A stretch of DNA of 39,757 bases from a virus. Numbering within the stretch: position 1 is the stretch's first letter; each line of letters begins with the position of its first letter. The position numbers were made by a program, and so were the translations under genes. Shown here piece after piece: positions 9,939 through 29,497 of the stretch. Location of the stretch: positions 1 through 39,757 of the IMG/VR virus record IMGVR_UViG_3300008259_000532, one strand, 5' to 3'. Below the pieces are notes generated by a model. It was not told the DNA's origin. It saw only the letters and a list, made by a program, of their open reading frames with translations, and did not search any database.

Positions 9939-11234
9939 TTAATCTGGCAGCAACGGTTTTGATCTAATAAGACCAAGTTCCGCTGCTGCTTTACTTACTG
10001 GTGGAAGGCTTCCAAATTTTTTGAGCACGGCATCATTTGCTAAACGATCAGCATGGTTTGACACAAAATTTATTTTTTTACTTACTGGACTGTTATACAC
10101 ATCCTTATGTGTATCTATGTAAGCTTGTTTGAGGGCTGCATGGGTTTCGTGTGCTGACAAGTTGGGATCAGATAGTATCTGTTGTTTCATATTGATAAAT
10201 TCTTTATCAGCTTGTTTCAACAAAGCTAGAGGATTAGTACTAATGTTGGCAGGTGTGCTTGGTGCGTTATTGGATAAGATTGCTTCATTCTCTGCCTTAG
10301 CTCTTAAAATATCATAGTTTTTATAAATTCCAACATCCTTGTGCGTGTCCATAAATGCCTTTTGTATTTGAAGCTTCATTTCATAGGGTGACAAGTTTGT
10401 ATTACTTAATATATTTTTGGCAAAGTTTCCTAAAGCTTGGAGACTTCCTTCGACAACGGCTTCGATCTTATTCTGAATATTATCAAAGAATCCACTTACG
10501 AAACCAACCCCTTGGCCAATTTTTCTACCGATCCAATTTAGAATTTTGCCTTCATTTAGTAATTCATAATTTGGATTTGAAATCCATTCTTTGAAAGAAA
10601 TATTGTTGATGTAGCCAAGAGTTTTGATTTCTTTGTAGAGCAAGTAATTATTGTAATCAGAACAGAAAACCCATTCTGTAGCCGTGACCAATTTTTTTTT
10701 CTTTTTCTTTTTTTTTCTTCGGATTATAGGAATGTCCTCTGCGGGCTTAATAGCATCTTTTGCTGCTTGTGCTGCTGCTTGTGCCTCTGCTTCTTTTTTG
10801 CGTCTGTCCTCATCTGTGCCAAATACTTTATCAAAGCCTTTTCCAGCTACACCCAAGACAGGGGTAACAAAGATTTTTCTGGTAAAGTACAAAAAAGCTG
10901 CCATCGGGATGGCTCCCGCCCCGCCAGTCACACCAGCTGCCAACAGAGCAGCAGCTAAAGGTGCAGAAACGCCAGTAACCTCTTGGGCCTTGTTGACGAA
11001 TTGTTTTGTTTTTTCTATGGCTGGCATGACTGCGTTTTTAAATTTTTCCCATGTTGGGTTTTTACCGTCCGCTCTTAATGCTTTATCTTCTTCAGTCTCG
11101 GTTGGATTCCAGTATGTGTAGCCAGATTGATAACCACGCTTGGCGTGTTTCCACATGTCCTTAATAAATTGAATTTCATCAAGCCTATCTTGCTCACATA
11201 AATCAACGAATTTTGCAAAAGTTATGTCATTCAT
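9939..11234 (-). CDS. 431-aa membrane protein, paralog of the next gene
   Basis: ATG at 11234 overlaps the stop of 11234-13378 (TAATG). N-terminus: FVDLCEQDRLDEIQFIKDMW, matching FIKTCEQDRLDEIQFLKNAW in the neighbour. Then a hydrophobic stretch (SAPLAAALLAAGVTGGAGAI, then AFLYFTRKIFVTPVLG) also shared with the neighbour, a run of eight or more lysines (about residue 170), FKEWISNPNYELLNEG (shared), and two internal repeats each containing DTHKDV (near residues 300 and 370). The lysine run is coded by a pure A-rich tract. Context suggests a structural, injected or membrane-associated phage protein. The function is unknown. Confidence 0.7.
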   Translation of the reverse strand: MNDITFAKFVDLCEQDRLDEIQFIKDMWKHAKRGYQSGYTYWNPTETEEDKALRADGKNPTWEKFKNAVMPAIEKTKQFVNKAQEVTGVSAPLAAALLAAGVTGGAGAIPMAAFLYFTRKIFVTPVLGVAGKGFDKVFGTDEDRRKKEAEAQAAAQAAKDAIKPAEDIPIIRRKKKKKKKKLVTATEWVFCSDYNNYLLYKEIKTLGYINNISFKEWISNPNYELLNEGKILNWIGRKIGQGVGFVSGFFDNIQNKIEAVVEGSLQALGNFAKNILSNTNLSPYEMKLQIQKAFMDTHKDVGIYKNYDILRAKAENEAILSNNAPSTPANISTNPLALLKQADKEFINMKQQILSDPNLSAHETHAALKQAYIDTHKDVYNSPVSKKINFVSNHADRLANDAVLKKFGSLPPVSKAAAELGLIRSKPLLPD

Positions 11235-15588: not shown

Positions 15589-16776
15589 ATGCCATTTATT
15601 TCAAGACCTGACGGTGATGTTAAAAAAGTTTTTATTACTGACGCTTGGCTTCTCGACCAGTTTGTAGGAAGCACTCTTTGGTCTTGGGGAAGAAATTATC
15701 AAGGAGGACTGGGGGACAACTCCGTAACCAGCAGAAGCTCTCCTGTTCAGACTGTGTCTGCTGGCACAAACTGGAAAGAAATTCATCTTGGCTCATATCA
15801 TTCATTGTCTATAAAAACTGACAATGCACTCTGGGTATGGGGCTATAACAATCACGGCCAACTAGGTACTAACAATGTAACTAATTATTCCTCTCCCGTG
15901 ACTACAGCTATATCTGGAACATTTTGGAAAACATGTGCTGCTGGATACTACCATAGTGCTGCTATAAAGACAGATGGAACGCTCTGGATGTGGGGATATA
16001 ATGCAGATGGAGAGCTTGGAGATAATACAGTAACAAAAAGAAGCTCTGGTGTACAAACAGTAGCAGCTGGTACAAACTGGAACAAAATATCTTGCGGTGG
16101 ATATCATACTGCTTGCATAAAAACAGACGGTACGCTTTGGCTATGGGGGTATAACAACCAAGGGCAGCTTGGAGATAATACTAGAACTCATCGTAGTTCT
16201 CCTGTCCAAACAGTAGCTGGTGGAACTAATTGGCTAAATGTTTCTTGCGGAGGATTTTCAACGGCAGCAATTAAGACGGATGGAACTCTCTGGACTTGGG
16301 GAGGCAACAGCTTCGGTGGTTTAGGAGATAACACAATTGTTGATAAGTCATCTCCGATCCAAACAATAACAGGAGGGACAAGCTGGAAACAAGTTTCGAT
16401 GGGTGGTGGCAACCACACGGGGGCAATCAAGAATGACGGAAGCCTCTGGATGTGGGGGTATAACCTTACAGGATCATTAGGGGATAATACTATTACTAAC
16501 CGCTCATCTCCCGTTCAAACTGTATCTGCCGGAACAAGTTGGAAACAGGTTGATTGTGGAGGGTTTGGACAATCAACAGGAGCCATAAAAAGTGATGGAA
16601 GTCTTTGGTGTTGGGGAAGAAATGTTATTTTTGGCACATCCACCATAACCGGCCAAATAGGAACCAATGCTGCCCTGCAATTTTATTCATCTCCAATTCA
16701 AACAGTTGCTGCTGGAACAACTTGGAAACAGGTTTCTGTTGGATACAACAGAACTGCTGCGGTAAAAAATGGTTAG
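15589..16776 (+). CDS. RCC1-repeat beta-propeller protein
   Basis: A 395-aa protein, ATG 15589 with AAGGA upstream. After a short N-terminal region (MPFISRPDGDVKKVFITDAW) come seven repeats of about 50 residues. Each starts with LW-x-WG-x-N-x2-G-x-LG and contains SSPVQT, then GT-x-W-K, GG...AIKTDG. This is the RCC1/BLIP-II pattern and should fold as a seven-bladed propeller. It lacks any catalytic motif. A late-type box and the neighbouring virion genes suggest a surface or tail protein that binds a host ligand (inference). Confidence 0.85.
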   Translation: MPFISRPDGDVKKVFITDAWLLDQFVGSTLWSWGRNYQGGLGDNSVTSRSSPVQTVSAGTNWKEIHLGSYHSLSIKTDNALWVWGYNNHGQLGTNNVTNYSSPVTTAISGTFWKTCAAGYYHSAAIKTDGTLWMWGYNADGELGDNTVTKRSSGVQTVAAGTNWNKISCGGYHTACIKTDGTLWLWGYNNQGQLGDNTRTHRSSPVQTVAGGTNWLNVSCGGFSTAAIKTDGTLWTWGGNSFGGLGDNTIVDKSSPIQTITGGTSWKQVSMGGGNHTGAIKNDGSLWMWGYNLTGSLGDNTITNRSSPVQTVSAGTSWKQVDCGGFGQSTGAIKSDGSLWCWGRNVIFGTSTITGQIGTNAALQFYSSPIQTVAAGTTWKQVSVGYNRTAAVKNG

Positions 16777-18458: not shown

Positions 18459-18522
18459 GTTCACATAGGGAATGAATCACTTCGATTCTCCCGGTTTCTT
18501 TTACTTTTTTAAGGAGGATGCG

Positions 18523-18732
18523 ATGTCTGATAAGAAGCAAGCTACCGCAACTAACACCGAAGACCGCAAGAGCAATGGCAACAGCATTTTGCTGCGTATG
18601 AGTCCTGTTCTGGCCGATGCTCTTCGGACTATTTCCAAGCGTGAAGAGCGCACTTTGACTACCATCATGTCCCGTGCGTTCAAGGACTACATCAAGACCA
18701 ACCATCCTGATATTAAGTCCGATATTGAGTAA
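18523..18732 (+). CDS. ribbon-helix-helix DNA-binding protein
   Basis: ATG 18523 follows AAGGAGG; an upstream in-frame ATG at 18472 has no ribosome binding site. A flexible N-terminus (MSDKKQATATNTEDRKSNGN) is followed by the ribbon SILLRMSP, helix ADALRTISKREERTL and helix TTIMSRAFKDYIK. This is the RHH/Arc-CopG layout: a beta strand, a first helix, and a second helix after a short turn. Likely a dimeric repressor, perhaps of its own gene or of the tRNA and GHKL/MoxR/VWA cassette downstream. Inference only. Confidence 0.7.
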   Translation: MSDKKQATATNTEDRKSNGNSILLRMSPVLADALRTISKREERTLTTIMSRAFKDYIKTNHPDIKSDIE

Positions 18733-18746
18733 TCAATATGCATGCT

Positions 18747-18795
18747 GTTTTCAAGTCCCTAGTCAATTTGTAAGTTGACTAGGGACATTGAAAAC
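18747..18795. repeat. long perfect hairpin between RHH gene and tRNA
   Basis: An inner 11-bp stem (TCCCTAGTCAA with TTGACTAGGGA, 8-base loop) is flanked by an outer 8-bp stem (GTTTTCAA with TTGAAAAC). There is no T-run, so it is not a standard terminator. It could be an RNA-processing or operator site. Confidence 0.6.
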
Positions 18796-18813
18796 CTAGA
18801 ATAGAAGAGATAG

Positions 18814-19082
18814 GCCCTCATAGCTCAATGGAAGAGCAACAGCCTTCAAAAGGAGCGTTATAAGAGAAATCTTATAATGGATCGTGTCAAATTCGGTGAA
18901 TCCTTAACTGGTAACGCCGAGCCAAGCCCGGAAACGGGAAGGTGTAGAGACTGAACGGCACGGACCTGAACAGATAATGCTGAAGGTCAAGACACAGTCC
19001 AGACCACGAACCCACATGGGGCGGTGAAAACCGTAGTGGTATGCTAAGCTGTAGGTTACAGGTTCGAGTCCTGTTGAGGGTA
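18814..19082 (+). tRNA. tRNA-Arg(UCU), interrupted by a group I intron
   Basis: Exons are 18814-18846 and 19044-19082. Joined, they give a full cloverleaf: acceptor GCCCTCA/TGAGGGT (one G-U), D stem GCTC/GAGC, anticodon stem ACAGC/GCTGT, T stem ACAGG/CCTGT with loop TTCGAGT, discriminator A. The spliced anticodon loop is CUUCUAA, so the anticodon is UCU (Arg, AGA). No 3' CCA is encoded. Unspliced, the first exon would read UCA, the UGA anticodon, which is misleading. AGA is a common codon in AT-rich phages, so the tRNA may aid translation of phage genes. Confidence 0.93.
18847..19043 (+). ncRNA. group I intron (IC3-like), 197 nt, no ORF
   Basis: The intron sits after U34 of the tRNA anticodon. 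It matches the well-known tRNA-Ile intron of Azoarcus in core segments: GTGTCAAATTCGGTGAA, GGTAACGCCGAGCCAAGC, GAAGGTGTAGAGACTGAACG and AAGACACAGTCC (18989-19000, the P7 region). It has GAAA-capped hairpins at 18858-18877 (TTATAAGA/TCTTATAA), 18927-18938 (CCCG/CGGG) and 19022-19033 (CGGT/ACCG). The last base is the required G. P1 is likely CCUU/AAGG, which would put A-U rather than the usual G-U at the splice site; the 5' boundary is inferred from the tRNA fold. No homing endonuclease is encoded. Confidence 0.92.
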
Positions 19083-20669: not shown

Positions 20670-21761
20670 ATGTCTAGAAGGAAGTCACCAGAAGCTTTGT
20701 ACATCGAATCCAAGCTTAAAAATGATCACAATCTACGATATGCCGATCTGGTAAAAATGCCAGACTACGCTTATGATATCGAAAATGCATATTTCAATAC
20801 TGTCAAAAGTCGTTTTAGAAAGGTGACGGCTGAAAAAGCTTTTGCTGTGGTGCCACAAGTTGCAGAATTTGACTCAGAGGATGTAAGTGACTTTGAGCCA
20901 GAGTATGATGAGCAGGCATCCAAGTTGATTCCATCTCTTGACCCGTATTTTGCAATCACAGAAGAGGGCAATAATTTTATTGGGCTTGTGCAGTCAATGA
21001 GCAGGGTCAACAATTTAAATATTAGACTGGTTGGTCCAGCAGGTTGTGGCAAAACCAGCTTTGCAACACAATACGCTGCAAAAAATAACTATCCTTGTTT
21101 GATTATGGACTGTGCTAATGTTCGAGAGCCTAGAGATTGGTTCGGATATCGAACATTTGATCCAGTTACTAAAGAAATTGTCTGGCATGAGAGTCTCTTT
21201 GTTAAGATGGTTGAAACTGCACATAGTGTTATTGTTCTCGATGAGCTTAACCGTGTGTCTCCGTTGGTGATCAATACGCTGATTCCTTTGCTTGACCATC
21301 GTCGCTCTACTTATCTTGAGGAAGCTGGCAAGAACATCAGTTGTGCTGAAGGTGTTACATTCTGGGCTCCAATCAACGAAGGCAGTCAGTTTACCGGAAC
21401 GATTGCTCTTGATGAAGCAATCTCTGATAGATTTGGTCTTGTTATGGAGTGTAAATTTTTGCCATCAATTGAAGAAAAGCTGGTTTTGCATAAAAAGACT
21501 GGTTTGGAGGAATCAGTTTGTGAAAAACTTGTTGATATTGCAAATCAAGTAAGAATCAAATCACAGATGGATTCAGTTGATAGTTACAGCAAGCCTATTT
21601 CTACACGAATGCTTGAGAATGCTGCAAGAGCTTTCAAAAAGCAGGGGGTGAAGTCTTTGCAATTTACTCTTTTGAACCACTTCAGTTCGGCTGGTGGTGC
21701 TGCGAGTGAGAGGAATAATTTGAGAACCCTGCTTGTTGGCAAATTCGGACTACTTTCATAA
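20670..21761 (+). CDS. MoxR/CobS-like AAA+ ATPase
   Basis: A 363-aa protein, ATG 20670 with AAAGGAG upstream. After a 110-residue N-terminal region comes the AAA+ core: Walker A GPAGCGKTS (122-130), Walker B VIVLDELNR (187-195), sensor-1-like TFWAPINEGSQFTGT, and DEAISDRFGLVMEC with the arginine-finger region. It ends in a helical lid. MoxR/CobS ATPases work with VWA partners to remodel protein complexes or insert metals; several phages carry CobS/CobT-like pairs. The VWA gene starts 12 bases after the stop here, so they form a pair. Confidence 0.85.
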   Translation: MSRRKSPEALYIESKLKNDHNLRYADLVKMPDYAYDIENAYFNTVKSRFRKVTAEKAFAVVPQVAEFDSEDVSDFEPEYDEQASKLIPSLDPYFAITEEGNNFIGLVQSMSRVNNLNIRLVGPAGCGKTSFATQYAAKNNYPCLIMDCANVREPRDWFGYRTFDPVTKEIVWHESLFVKMVETAHSVIVLDELNRVSPLVINTLIPLLDHRRSTYLEEAGKNISCAEGVTFWAPINEGSQFTGTIALDEAISDRFGLVMECKFLPSIEEKLVLHKKTGLEESVCEKLVDIANQVRIKSQMDSVDSYSKPISTRMLENAARAFKKQGVKSLQFTLLNHFSSAGGAASERNNLRTLLVGKFGLLS

Positions 21762-25230: not shown

Positions 25231-26361
25231 ATGAAAAAGTGTAAAGCAAAATTTGTTTTTAACACAATGGTTTCAAATGAGAGCCATTGCATCCTTAGAA
25301 TGCTTGAATCGGTCTACAAATATGTAGATTATTGGGTAATTCAAGACAACGGTTCTACGGATGGAACTCAAGATTTGATCAAAAACTTCTTCGCAGAGAA
25401 AGGCATTCCGGGATTTCTTTACGAAATTCCTTGGTCTGGCTGCATGGGTCAGAATCGAGATCACACAGTTCAAACATGTTTGAAAGCAGATCATGGTTGT
25501 GATTGGATTTTGCGGGTTGATGCAGATGAAGTGTTAGAGGTTGATGATGACTTCGACTGGTCAATTTTTGATGAAACCAGCATTCAAAGTTTTGATGTAC
25601 CAGCTAAATCTGGTGTCGTAAATTACTACCGCTGTTGGCTTTGGAATGCCAAATTGCCATGGAAGTTCAAGCATGATAAGCGCCATGAATGTATCATGTT
25701 GGACAGGGATAATGTAGGAGAAAATTTCCAAAGAGTTCAACTGCCACCTAGTTTTCGTCACAAAGTGATTGCAGATGGGCAGACCTACTCAAATCCATTC
25801 AAGTATTACATCGATGCTCTTGAATTAGAAAAAGACATGATCGTGAAGAAGGAGATGCTGACCGACCAGTATCACTTGTGGTACTTGGGTAAAAGTTATC
25901 ATGATAATGTGCCATCTGGTCATCTCCCATTTGGTGAATTGCATAATCATGAACTAGCTAGGCGAGGATTGTTTTATTTTGAGAGATTCCTTGAAGTAAG
26001 ACACCAGTTTATGTCAGCTGGAACAATTAAATATGTTGATGAAATGGCATACACAGGATTTCTGTGTATGGCACATTTATACTCCGTGATGGGAGATTTA
26101 GAAAAAGAGATTTGGGCTCTTAAAACTGCTGAAATGACTTGCCCAAGAAGGAATGAACATCTTAAGAGATTGGCTTGGCTTTACCATCGCAATAAAAGAT
26201 TTGCAGAGATGCTACAAGTCACAACTCGAATGATGGACCCTCAAAGAACTAACCCTTATCCGAGTCTTTGTGTTGTTCTTGAAGACGATGCTTACCACAA
26301 TACAGGAACATTGGTACAAGACTTACATCGCTTAGCTCTTGAATGCAACCAAATGCACTAA
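25231..26361 (+). CDS. family 2 glycosyltransferase
   Basis: A 376-aa protein, ATG 25231 without a clear ribosome binding site. GT-A signs: NTMVSNESHCILRMLESV at the N-terminus, WVIQDNGSTDGTQDLI (nucleotide-binding loop, about 35-50) and WILRVDADEVLEV with a DxD metal motif (D97-A-D99). The C-terminal third has helical, TPR-like segments. Its stop overlaps the start of the first carbamoyltransferase gene (TAATG), so the two are probably made together. It likely adds a sugar that is then carbamoylated (inference). Confidence 0.8.
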   Translation: MKKCKAKFVFNTMVSNESHCILRMLESVYKYVDYWVIQDNGSTDGTQDLIKNFFAEKGIPGFLYEIPWSGCMGQNRDHTVQTCLKADHGCDWILRVDADEVLEVDDDFDWSIFDETSIQSFDVPAKSGVVNYYRCWLWNAKLPWKFKHDKRHECIMLDRDNVGENFQRVQLPPSFRHKVIADGQTYSNPFKYYIDALELEKDMIVKKEMLTDQYHLWYLGKSYHDNVPSGHLPFGELHNHELARRGLFYFERFLEVRHQFMSAGTIKYVDEMAYTGFLCMAHLYSVMGDLEKEIWALKTAEMTCPRRNEHLKRLAWLYHRNKRFAEMLQVTTRMMDPQRTNPYPSLCVVLEDDAYHNTGTLVQDLHRLALECNQMH

Positions 26362-27926
26362 TGAAAAATGTAGCTATTTATGGATACCATGACGCATCTT
26401 TATGTTTGAAAGATAACGGTCGTTATTACATTTATGAAGCGGAAAGATTTTTCGGAAAAAGATACTCGATACTGACTCAAGAGTTCAAAAATCATCCTAT
26501 TGTTGGGCATTTAGTTCCTTCAGATTCGCAATTTCATGCATTCTTTGATCACATCAAAAACAAACATAAATTTGAAACTATTGAAAATCTTTACTATCAC
26601 GACATGTATCCTCCAGATATCAATAAAATCAAGCAATTTTTTCATGTCCAAAATTTCAGAAGCTTCAATCATCATGATGCACATGCTTGGAGCGCATATT
26701 GCCAATGTCCTTTTGATGAAACATATATCATCACATATGATGGAAATGGAAAAAACTTAGTTGGTCCAGAAAGTAGTTTTGTGCTGTGGTACGCAACGCC
26801 AACAGAAGTAAAAAAATTAAACGACTTCCAGCCATGGGGTTCATACAGCCTTGGTAATTGTTACATCGCACTTACAAATTGTCTGGCTTCGATCAAAAAG
26901 AAGAAAAATTTTGGTTTGCCCAGCGCTGGTAAGCTGATGGGTCTTTGTTCTTATGGTCAACCAAGAGAAGCATGGAAGCAAGTTATAAGAGAGTTCTTTG
27001 ATAGCGGTTCCAAAGATGCAGCCCAAGGTGTTGCTAATGTTGTTGGATTTGATCCAAGAGAATATGACACGATATCTGGCAGGGATGAGTTAGATTTTGC
27101 AGCAACTATTCAATGGGCTTTTGAAGATAAGTTTTTTGGAATTTTCAACGATTTAAATATTCCTCCGAATTCAAATTTATGTCTGGCTGGGGGCTGCGCC
27201 CTTAATATAATTGTAAATCAAAAGCTATTTGAGATGGGATATAATGTCTATGTTCCACCTAATAGTGGGGACTGTGGCATTACACTTGGGGTTGTAGCCC
27301 ATGAAAACCAAGATAGAAAAATAGATGCAACATATTGTGGTTATGAGATTTTAGATTATGGGTATTACGATAGTAGTTTTTACAGACACGATGTCACCAA
27401 TCAAGAAATAGCAAAAATTCTTTTTGAGCAAAAGAAAATTATTGGTTACATTCATGGCAATAGTGAGTGTGGTCCTAGAGCTTTGGGTAACCGTAGTATT
27501 CTTTGCTACCCAGATATTGCAAATTTAAAAAATAAGTTAAATAGTGAAATCAAATTTAGAGAATGGTATAGACCATTTGGAGCAGTAACAAAGTTGGAAA
27601 ACTTGGAAAAATATTTTTACAAGGCTTGCGAATCACCATTTATGAATTTTTGTCCAATTTTGAAAGAACAATACAGGTGGCCATCAATTACACATGTTGA
27701 TAACACTTGCAGAATACAAACGGTTACTCGACTTCAGCATCCCGATTTGTATGACATTCTTACTCAAATAGAGAATCTAGGAGGAGAGGGAATCCTTCTG
27801 AATACATCATTTAATATAAAGGGTAAGCCAATTTTAACTACTATGCGAGATGCATTTGAGGTTTTAGAACAAACTAAGCTTAATGGCTTTGTACACAATA
27901 ATTTATATTATACGAGAGAGGTGTGA
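26361..27926 (+). CDS. O-carbamoyltransferase (NodU/CmcH family)
   Basis: A 521-aa protein. ATG 26361 is preferred because it overlaps the GT stop and gives the usual VAIYGYHDASLC start of the family; an earlier in-frame ATG at 26343 lies in the upstream gene. Metal-binding motif FNHHDAHAWSAY (H104, H108), YDGNGKN loop, PPNSGDCGITLGV with the third metal ligand, and the C-terminal signature SECGPRALGNRSIL and LLNTSFNIKGKPI. Known relatives (NodU, CmcH, TobZ) move a carbamoyl group from carbamoyl phosphate to a hydroxyl of a sugar or antibiotic. Followed by a close paralog. Confidence 0.88.
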   Translation: MKNVAIYGYHDASLCLKDNGRYYIYEAERFFGKRYSILTQEFKNHPIVGHLVPSDSQFHAFFDHIKNKHKFETIENLYYHDMYPPDINKIKQFFHVQNFRSFNHHDAHAWSAYCQCPFDETYIITYDGNGKNLVGPESSFVLWYATPTEVKKLNDFQPWGSYSLGNCYIALTNCLASIKKKKNFGLPSAGKLMGLCSYGQPREAWKQVIREFFDSGSKDAAQGVANVVGFDPREYDTISGRDELDFAATIQWAFEDKFFGIFNDLNIPPNSNLCLAGGCALNIIVNQKLFEMGYNVYVPPNSGDCGITLGVVAHENQDRKIDATYCGYEILDYGYYDSSFYRHDVTNQEIAKILFEQKKIIGYIHGNSECGPRALGNRSILCYPDIANLKNKLNSEIKFREWYRPFGAVTKLENLEKYFYKACESPFMNFCPILKEQYRWPSITHVDNTCRIQTVTRLQHPDLYDILTQIENLGGEGILLNTSFNIKGKPILTTMRDAFEVLEQTKLNGFVHNNLYYTREV

Positions 27927-29497
27927 TTGTGGACATGGCAGTTTATGGCTACCATGATGGTTCTGTTTGTATCAGAGATGATGATGGTAAATATCATATT
28001 TATGAAGCTGAGAGATTCTTCGGGAGAAGGTATTCTCTTATCACCAGAGAATTTGAATTAGAAGAAAATGTATCTTTTTTAACTCCTACAGAAGATGAGT
28101 TCAACAATTTTTTTGTTCACATAAAAAACAAACATAAAGACAATCGAATAGAAAATTTTTATTATCATGACATGTATGCTCAAGATTTGGCTGTCTTGAA
28201 TTCAATTTTTGATATTAAAAACTTCAGAAGCTATGATCACCACTATTCTCATGCCTGTAGTGCATATTATCAATCTCCATTTGATGAATGCTACATAATA
28301 AGCTACGATGGTTCTGGCAAGAATACAAATCATACCATGAGTTCTTTCGTATTCTGGCATGCCAAACACAATGAAATAATTAAGTTAAGAGAATTCACCC
28401 CTCACACAGCATTTAGCTTGGGTGATTGTTATATTGATCTTTCTATTTGTTTGTCTTCAATAAACGGATCAGAATTCTTTGGATTGCCGAGAGCAGGCAA
28501 ACTGATGGGTCTTTGCGCCCATGGAAAACCACGGGAAGAGTGGAAAATTCCAATAGCCAAATATTTCGATAATCCCGGATATTTAAGTTTGAATGCTTTG
28601 GCAAATCAAATAGGTTTATATGTCCAGCATTGGCACACCTTGTCTGGACAGGATGAGTTAGATTTTGCTGCTACCATCCAATGGGCTTTTGAAGATAAGT
28701 TTTTTAGATTATTCAATCTTATGAAGATACCTAAAGGTTCAAACATATGCATGGTTGGAGGTTGTGCCATGAATATTGTTGTGAATCAAAAGTTATTTGA
28801 AATGGGATACAATATTTATGTGCCACCGAATGTTGGTGACTGCGGGTTAACTTTTGGAGTTTTAGCCGATATTTATAAAGATAAAAATATTGACCTCACC
28901 TATGCTGGTTTTGATATTTTAGATGAAGACTATCGAGATCATGAATTTAACTGCGAATACATCAGAGAATCTAGTATTGCTAATTTATTATTTTTTGAAA
29001 AACAAATAATAGGGCTCATGCAAGGCAAAAGTGAATGTGGCCCGAGAGCTTTGGGCAATCGCAGTATTCTTTGTTATCCTGATATTCCAGACCTGAAAAA
29101 TAAGTTGAATAGTGAAATAAAATTTAGAGAATGGTTCAGACCTTTTGGAGCAGTCACGAAACTGGATGCTCTCGATAAATATTTCTATAATGCCTGTGAA
29201 TCAAGACACATGACATTTTGTCCTACTTTGAAAGAAGAGTATCGATGGCCATCCATTACGCATGTCGATAATACTTGTAGAATTCAAACAGTTACAAAGG
29301 AGCAAAATTACAAGCTGTATAAAATACTCGATGAAATTGAAAAATTAGGTGGTGAGCCCATCTTACTGAATACTTCTTTCAACATAAAAGGCAAGCCAAT
29401 TCTTACAACATTAAAAGATGCGTTTGAAGTTTTGAAACAAACAAAACTGAATGGTTTTGTTTGCGAAGATTTATATTTCAAGAATAACTTGAATTAA
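27923..29497 (+). CDS. second O-carbamoyltransferase (tandem paralog)
   Basis: A 524-aa protein. GTG 27923 overlaps the stop of the first copy (GTGA). A GTG two codons and an ATG four codons later are alternatives. It is well over half identical to the first copy by eye and keeps all key motifs: YDHHYSHACSAY, YDGSGKN, PPNVGDCGLTFGV, SECGPRALGNRSIL and LLNTSFNIKGKPI. The sequences differ most in the middle (about residues 190-230 and 330-360), where substrate choice may differ. Its stop shares bases with the stop of the convergent polymerase gene (TTAA). Confidence 0.88.
   Translation: MIVDMAVYGYHDGSVCIRDDDGKYHIYEAERFFGRRYSLITREFELEENVSFLTPTEDEFNNFFVHIKNKHKDNRIENFYYHDMYAQDLAVLNSIFDIKNFRSYDHHYSHACSAYYQSPFDECYIISYDGSGKNTNHTMSSFVFWHAKHNEIIKLREFTPHTAFSLGDCYIDLSICLSSINGSEFFGLPRAGKLMGLCAHGKPREEWKIPIAKYFDNPGYLSLNALANQIGLYVQHWHTLSGQDELDFAATIQWAFEDKFFRLFNLMKIPKGSNICMVGGCAMNIVVNQKLFEMGYNIYVPPNVGDCGLTFGVLADIYKDKNIDLTYAGFDILDEDYRDHEFNCEYIRESSIANLLFFEKQIIGLMQGKSECGPRALGNRSILCYPDIPDLKNKLNSEIKFREWFRPFGAVTKLDALDKYFYNACESRHMTFCPTLKEEYRWPSITHVDNTCRIQTVTKEQNYKLYKILDEIEKLGGEPILLNTSFNIKGKPILTTLKDAFEVLKQTKLNGFVCEDLYFKNNLN

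Follow-up and report, generated by a model that had tools for sequence, protein, structure and literature searches.

A group I intron within the anticodon of a phage tRNA-Arg(UCU) gene and its relatives in other viral tRNA genes

Can a phage tRNA gene whose anticodon is split by 197 bases still give rise to a tRNA, and what is the sequence that splits it? The question is raised by a tRNA-Arg(UCU) gene on the plus strand of a 39,757-base virus record (the window, by which we mean the whole stretch analysed). A preliminary description had placed a group I intron of this length between U34 and C35 of the gene, and our analysis bears this out on three counts: a match to the model RF00028, the tRNA formed by the joined exons, and homologues in which the site is empty.

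The interrupted gene and the phage that carries it

The gene occupies positions 18814-19082. Its 5' exon (18814-18846) ends at U34, the 197-nt intron (18847-19043) ends in a terminal omega-G at 19043, and the 3' exon (19044-19082) starts at C35. Joined at 18846/19044, the exons are recognized by ARAGORN as a 72-nt tRNA-Arg(tct) with the anticodon UCU. This product had been called a perfect tRNA. It does fold as tRNA-Arg(UCU), but its first acceptor pair is G1.U72 and the CCA end is not encoded. The exon junction is fixed by intron-free homologues, which run straight through at that point. A 24-base piece of the 3' exon has matches in 29 viral contigs, 24 of which (several being near-copies) read ...ACAGCCTT^CTAAGC... 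without interruption. Three others carry the same intron as the window (L002, L004 and L019), one has a different intron at the same site (L011), and one (L029) has the 3' half of tRNA-Arg only. In L029 this exact 3' half, at 11049, is preceded by unrelated sequence and is perhaps an attachment site. Pseudomonas phages K4 and PPAT likewise possess the intact gene without an intron, annotated in PPAT as tRNA-Arg.

The four records that carry this intron (the window, L002, L004 and L019) are 99.6-100% identical over their aligned stretches, and the sister records differ further from the window by deletions in the gene before the tRNA. That small Arc-like gene (phrog_582; window 18472-18732) is intact in the window and in L334, the record of L019, and is shortened in the sister contigs, with 177 bases missing in L002 and 64 in L004. 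The occurrence of the intron in four records makes an assembly artefact unlikely, though two of the records have neighbouring metagenome numbers. An Infernal search with Intron_gpI, which the preliminary description had suggested as a check, matched the whole of RF00028 to 18836-19020 with 51.4 bits (E 2.4e-10 for the window), a margin of only 1.4 bits over the gathering score of 50. On the strength of this E value and of the empty-site homologues we reject a chance match as the explanation of the intron.

Run with default settings on the window, ARAGORN reports only a tRNA-Ser(GCT) at 19010-19082, and with introns allowed it reports a tRNA-Leu(CAA) with a 195-base intron. The earlier warning that automatic annotation could be misled is thus justified, but not the form that the error was expected to take, as the UCA misreading was not reproduced by ARAGORN in either mode. 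RF00005 also reports 19010-19082, with 29.2 bits against a cut-off of 29, and this agreement with ARAGORN could be taken to mean that the gene is uninterrupted and that its product is this tRNA-Ser(GCU)-like molecule or another unspliced tRNA. Against such a reading, which we regard as exceedingly improbable, the 19010-19082 tRNA has P9 of the intron for its 5' half and barely reaches the cut-off, its 3' half is identical over the 24-base pattern to the uninterrupted tRNA-Arg(UCU) of 24 of the 29 contigs, and the half-tRNA at 18814 would be left unexplained. An interrupted tRNA-Arg(UCU) gene is the reading that we retain. When default ARAGORN was applied to nine loci with such introns (L281, L206, L208, L033, L034, L188, L130, L141 and L011), the interrupted gene was, judged by position, reported in none, and nothing at all was reported in four named-phage stretches. 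RF00028 at its cut-off missed all three of the named-phage introns tried (L033, L206 and L208). The authors of tRNAscan-SE 2.0 state that detecting introns of this kind was outside the design of the program. Phage tRNA counts from standard tools can miss genes.

The phage context given in the preliminary description is confirmed by comparison with PHROGs, which identifies a virion structural protein (phrog_1645, E 6.9e-95), a protein with a baseplate wedge-like domain and a DNA polymerase, the last being nearest to that of an uncultured 484-kb phage (37% identity). Also encoded in the window are two Nol-like carbamoyltransferases in tandem (26343-29494; phrog_1601) and a protein resembling RCC1, the regulator of chromosome condensation (15589-16773; phrog_4219). 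The record may be a fragment. A sister record of 145,015 bases has one tRNA match, the interrupted tRNA-Arg(UCU), and one RF00028 match, the intron of that gene; its terminase match is weak (E 7e-6). RF00028 detected no further introns in this sister record, a negative that is weak because the model at its cut-off missed three relatives. AGA accounts for 161 of the 319 arginine codons in 22 window ORFs picked by size, so that the only tRNA detected in this phage decodes the most frequent of its arginine codons and is interrupted.

Upstream of the tRNA lies a near-perfect inverted repeat on the plus strand (18747-18795; 22 pairs, one bulge and a 4-nt loop; fold energy -30.3 kcal/mol, z -8.4), which may be a terminator, an operator or an RNase III site. 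The -35-like box of the tRNA falls within the 3' arm of this repeat and belongs to a promoter-like site TTGACT-16-TAGAAT (18775-18802, plus strand) that scores 10 of 12 matches in a consensus scan and ends 11 bases before the tRNA. Promoter-like sites in this region are no more frequent than in shuffles (2 found, mean 1.6).

The group I fold and its fit to the exons

We aligned the window intron with 24 introns from virus loci and 7 from bacterial genomes, and this 32-intron alignment supports the proposed group I fold, pseudoknot included. It took in 25 of 30 viral and 7 of 41 bacterial introns among the matches listed and left out L036, L055, L107, L115 and L169, of which L055 and L169 fit P10 badly and were retained in the P10 counts given below.

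All elements of the fold lie on the plus strand. P2, with a GAAA loop, spans 18856-18879 and has the lowest share of paired cells of all the helices (70.8%). The 5' strand of P3 (18883-18888) has its partner at 18957-18962, and that of P7, with a bulged A (18947-18952), at 18996-19000. The pseudoknot formed by these two helices is supported by 99.0% and 99.4% of cells paired, respectively, and by changes on both sides at 5 of 6 pairs in P3 and 2 of 5 in P7. Between them lie P4-P5 (18892-18921, with P4 formed by 18892-18897 and 18916-18921), where 94.8% of the P4 cells and 72.9% of the P5 cells are paired, and P6-P6a with a GAAA loop (18922-18942), defined by the pair list and the alignment. 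P8 (18963-18988) has 91.9% of cells paired and both-side changes at 4 of 5 pairs, and P9 with P9a and a GAAA-capped P9b (19003-19040) has 97.5-99.2% paired. The three GAAA-capped hairpins noted in the preliminary description are present and correspond to P2, P6a and P9b, and both of the core motifs that it quoted, AAGACACAGTCC and CAAATTCGG, are found. By analogy, P7 would be the guanosine-binding helix.

Over the whole alignment 90.3% of cells are paired, compared with 74.9% in shuffles and 30-45% when the partners are slid. Changes on both sides are found at 40 of the 58 pairs, with a covariation score of 0.432 against 0.150. Part of the excess over the slid versions is built in, because we derived the structure from the window itself and used conserved core motifs to find the relatives; the both-side changes are independent of how the structure was derived.

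We considered whether the intron might be dead, having decayed and lost its splicing, so that the tRNA gene would now be a pseudogene. P5 is reduced to two pairs in the window, its third pair being a U-U mismatch, the RF00028 margin is small, and the acceptor pair 1-72 is G.U. The lost P5 pair means little, however, since it is missing in 26 of the 32 aligned introns, and it is the sole exception among the 58 listed pairs, 57 of which form. The invariant core positions are retained, P1 and P10 both fit the exons, and four records retain intron and exons together, so that we judge a dead intron to be very unlikely. U34.G18853 and the terminal G19043 are also present, both having been conditions of the search for relatives.

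Introns of subgroup IC3, found in tRNA genes, are short, have no P5abc or P7.1/7.2 and carry GNRA loops on P2 and P9. The window intron has these features and may belong to the subgroup. The name IC3 appears in the title of a reference cited by a review (PMC3984707). No ORF of at least 60 aa overlaps 18847-19043, and no homing endonuclease is encoded in the window intron.

P1 can be drawn in two registers in the window. The preliminary description favoured an A-U pair at the splice site, which results when C31-C32-U33-U34 pairs with A-A-G-G; alternatively, C32-U33-U34 (18844-18846) pairs with the internal guide GAG (18853-18855), placing the canonical U.G at the cut. The A-U register is complete in 1 of the 32 aligned introns, namely that of the window, whereas all pairs of the U.G register (CUU/GAG) form in 24. 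Of the eight exceptions, two are gapped in the alignment at the splice site and six lie after position 35. We reject the A-U register on this comparison, even though it gives the stronger hairpin in isolation (-1.7 compared with +1.1 kcal/mol); the minimum-energy fold of the 20-nt P1 region uses the U.G register (-2.6 kcal/mol).

For the wider comparison of guides we dropped introns longer than 280 nt, rows without P1, 'Stop' and 'Gln' rows, and 5' exons lacking the anticodon base. This kept 136 introns, 125 of them distinct (90 bacterial and 35 viral; among the matches listed), with the doubtful rows L215 and L287 staying in and four Arg(CCU) rows counted as viral in the guide and P10 counts and in the tree (4 of the 35 distinct viral introns). 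Introns after U34 combine CTT with the guide GAG in 67 of 69 distinct cases among the matches listed, five introns after U35 have TTT/GAA, and after U36 we find CAT/GTG and CCT/GGG. Both the match of guide to exon and the constancy of the guide are largely built in, because the script that located P1 accepted only guides of three or more pairs with a G facing the final U of the exon. The position of the guide beside P2 was not imposed by the search script.

P10 was not a selection criterion for the introns. In the window it would consist of two pairs, formed between an AG strand (18851-18852) and C35-U36 of the 3' exon (19044-19045). Its first pair is present in 21 of the 23 distinct viral U34 introns, compared with 11.25 expected, and none of 5000 permutations reached as high a count; the permutation overstates the independence of the sample, because introns of one tRNA species are related. 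The identity of this pair goes with the viral target: it is A-U in 12 of 13 tRNA-Leu, U.G in 7 of 7 tRNA-Lys, G-C in 1 of 2 tRNA-Thr and C-G in the one tRNA-Arg. Viral and bacterial introns together give 46 of 69 (31.1 by permutation; among the matches listed), leaving by subtraction 25 of 46 in bacteria, among the matches listed, a much weaker signal than the viral one.

Related introns in phages and bacteria

The window intron belongs to a wider set: viral contigs contain similar ones in the tRNA genes for Lys(UUU), Leu(UAA), Thr(UGU) and Asn(GUU). A 16-base motif spanning P7-P9 is present in 75 viral stretches, one of them with two sites; adding the window, L034 and the phage Daredevil gave 79 sites for testing. 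From 40 of these a tRNA could be rebuilt, near-copies included: 14 Lys(UUU), 8 Leu(UAA), 6 Met/Ile(CAU), 4 Arg(UCU), 4 Arg(CCU), 2 Thr(UGU) and 2 Asn(GUU), all four Arg(UCU) cases coming from the phage of the window. The other 39 comprise stretches that end too soon, introns in capsid genes, apparent chance matches and filter failures. Another core motif led to at least 28 rebuilt tRNAs among 122 sites listed. The phage label of most contigs is that of IMG/VR. Since their exons are identical to bacterial ones, the four Arg(CCU) contigs are probably host DNA at prophage ends, and we do not count them as phage tRNAs; some of the viral Leu(UAA) contigs may also be DNA of host type. Among 32 records with tRNA introns, many of them short, a terminase was detected in 8 with phrog_2 (two weakly, including the sister of the window) and in 5 with PF03237.

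Two of the phages are cultured. Gordonia phage Daredevil has a tRNA-Lys(UUU) with a 238-nt intron (NC_048021.1 41860-42097, minus strand), identified from its joined exons in a gap without annotated features; because its T-loop reads ATCGAAA, this tRNA was rebuilt only with the T-loop filter relaxed to allow an ATCGA start. In Agrobacterium phage Atu_ph07, joined exons give a tRNA-Leu(UAA) with a 278-nt intron (NC_042013.1 112939-113216), and a hypothetical CDS is annotated over the 3' exon. Two uncultured phages also have an interrupted tRNA-Leu(UAA), with an intron of 205 nt in the 735-kb LR756501 and of 700 nt in the 595-kb LR756511 (L034 402-1102). The latter intron encodes an HNH protein (PF01844, 26.3 bits; cut-off 21.4). 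The word 'intron' is absent from the main text of the huge-phage paper. At exactly the tRNA-Arg(UCU) site that is interrupted in the window, a second phage has a different insert of 305 nt (L011; G003 21016-21209), for which RF00028 gives 44.3 bits, under its cut-off, and our script finds no P1. This phage, G003, has 25 tRNA matches at E 0.01 and a terminase match at E 1e-38.

Bacterial genome contigs contain the P7-P9 motif in at least 119 stretches. With a loose script, 108 of the 119 stretches listed could be assigned to a tRNA, some of these rows being spurious, with Leu(UAA) (40) and Arg(CCU) (37), the latter a further bacterial tRNA gene with a group I intron, as the most frequent. One among the matches listed, L281 from a gammaproteobacterial MAG, has an Arg(UCU) intron after U34, the same site as in the window. 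The L281 gene is probably chromosomal, as it is flanked by tRNA-Pro and tRNA-His, and on account of this bacterial case the Arg(UCU) intron is not a phage speciality. A tRNA-Leu(UAA) with a 204-nt intron of the same class also occurs on a conjugative Bradyrhizobium plasmid (L211 1455-1659), a possible vehicle for the intron.

The best-scoring relatives of the window intron are other viral introns, in tRNA-Lys, capsid, CAU tRNA and tRNA-Leu genes. By BLAST it is closest to that of a phage tRNA-Lys (L130; 78% over 155 bases), followed by L191 and L198 (77%), L059/L121 and the tRNA-Leu of L133. L059 and L121, viral loci with CAU-type 3' exons, rank 4th and 5th of 200 loci, and the CAU-type L047 comes 156th and its copy L071 157th, ranks that were taken for hand-listed CAU-type loci only; because L059 and L121 rank so high, sequence alone does not separate the intron types cleanly. 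In L198 the intron divides a major head protein gene into one part that aligns with positions 3-205 of phrog_3437 (294 positions) and another that aligns with 202-293. The introns of L198 (7542-7725) and of the similar loci L191, L161, L178, L172 and L186 are 75-77% identical to that of the window. A related stretch lies between two capsid CDS in Pelagibacter phage HTVC120P.

In a tree built from 206 columns the viral introns mostly group together, with targets switching inside that group. The label changes needed among the matches listed number 7 for virus or bacterium (37 in shuffles), 20 for target gene (68) and 12 for target gene within viruses (26), with four Arg(CCU) and nine capsid rows counted as viral; the nine 'capsid' sequences were taken as segments of fixed extent around the motif and received their label from similarity, L198 alone having been read. 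One clade that is purely viral (support 0.97) mixes tRNA-Lys introns after U34, tRNA-Lys introns after U35 and tRNA-Leu(UAA) introns, and one Leu and one Thr intron form a pair (support 0.93). The window intron itself is poorly placed (supports 0.82 and 0.75).

Splicing, spread and known systems

We consider it highly probable, from the sequence comparisons, that the locus is a phage tRNA-Arg(UCU) gene split by a group I intron that is removed by two-step splicing and is most likely a passenger, kept because it splices accurately. The guide GAG would pair with C32-U33-U34 of the 5' exon as P1, the U34.G pair marking the cut; a guanosine held in P7 would attack after U34 in the first step; and P10 would hold C35-U36 of the 3' exon while U34 attacks after the omega-G at 19043, giving a joined tRNA whose anticodon UCU reads AGA. 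Splicing would proceed in infected cells without protein, and the tRNA would serve the AGA codons of the phage itself. C35 is a main determinant for arginyl-tRNA synthetase, and since it sits in the 3' exon, arginine should not be attached to the unspliced RNA.

That the intron lies inside the anticodon could instead mean that it is a control device, withholding the anticodon loop until splicing and so delaying the tRNA or hiding it from host anticodon nucleases. tRNA-Lys(UUU) and tRNA-Arg are targets of known nucleases of this kind, and U34 is present in 28 of the 40 tRNAs that were rebuilt (14 Lys, 8 Leu, 4 Arg(UCU) and 2 Thr). U34 tRNAs share a pyrimidine followed by U33-U34, however, so the guide alone explains this preference of site, and related introns are also present in bacterial tRNA genes and in the phage major head protein gene. 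A control function is in our estimation unlikely, and we continue to favour the passenger.

Related introns appear to have moved among phage tRNA genes. In the absence of a coding sequence of at least 60 aa, spread of the window intron needs co-inheritance, recombination, an endonuclease acting in trans or reverse splicing. A more specific proposal, that phages own a lineage of tRNA introns which spreads from one tRNA gene to another with its guide unchanged, we put forward as tentative, at somewhat short of an even chance. The C32-U33-U34 paired by GAG is common to U34 tRNAs, and a new target would for this reason need only a changed P10. The tree speaks for the proposal, as does the fit of P10 to the target, seen in 21 of the 23 viral U34 introns; against it counts that the constancy of CTT/GAG (67 of 69 U34 introns among the matches listed) is largely a product of the search.

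Comparison with the Azoarcus tRNA-Ile(CAU) intron, which the preliminary description thought very similar, holds loosely, for the kind of core. The Azoarcus intron has the same kind of core with GAAA-capped hairpins, but its type is inserted after U36 with a CAU/GUG P1, an arrangement that we see in the CAU-type viral locus L047 (intron after U36, guide GTG). The window intron follows U34 with the guide GAG, like the introns of Leu(UAA) and Lys(UUU) genes, and its best relatives are viral.

Bacterial tRNA genes have long been known to contain group I introns, and the literature records them in tRNA-Leu(UAA), tRNA-Ile(CAU) and tRNA-fMet (PMC3984707, PMC8450103). The window intron shares with them a core of about 200-250 nt, the elements P1-P10, the P3/P7 pseudoknot, a site in the anticodon loop and U.G at the 5' splice site. 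It differs in residing in a phage genome and in interrupting tRNA-Arg(UCU) after U34, where its bacterial counterpart is L281. The group I introns known from phages, in T4, SPO1, Twort and Bastille (PMC3984707, PMC11878797), are likewise ribozymes in phage genomes, but those reported interrupt protein-coding genes and not, as here, a tRNA gene. A 2014 review places phage group I introns only in protein genes and none in tRNA genes (PMC3984707). By this reachable record, an intron in a phage tRNA-Arg(UCU) is unusual, as the preliminary description had said, and among the papers listed by searches of the open-licence literature none could be recognised as describing a phage tRNA with a group I intron, which is not proof of absence. 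The rule is broken in uncultured phages and in two cultured ones. With such introns one can test directly how a tRNA intron comes to occupy a new target, and whether splicing serves phages to time or protect their tRNAs. Theta ribozymes, too, lie beside phage tRNA genes, where they cut the 3' trailer (PMC10879173). Like the window intron they are catalytic RNAs proposed to mature a phage tRNA; theirs is a cut in the 3' trailer, whereas the window intron splits the anticodon and must join the two halves of the tRNA.
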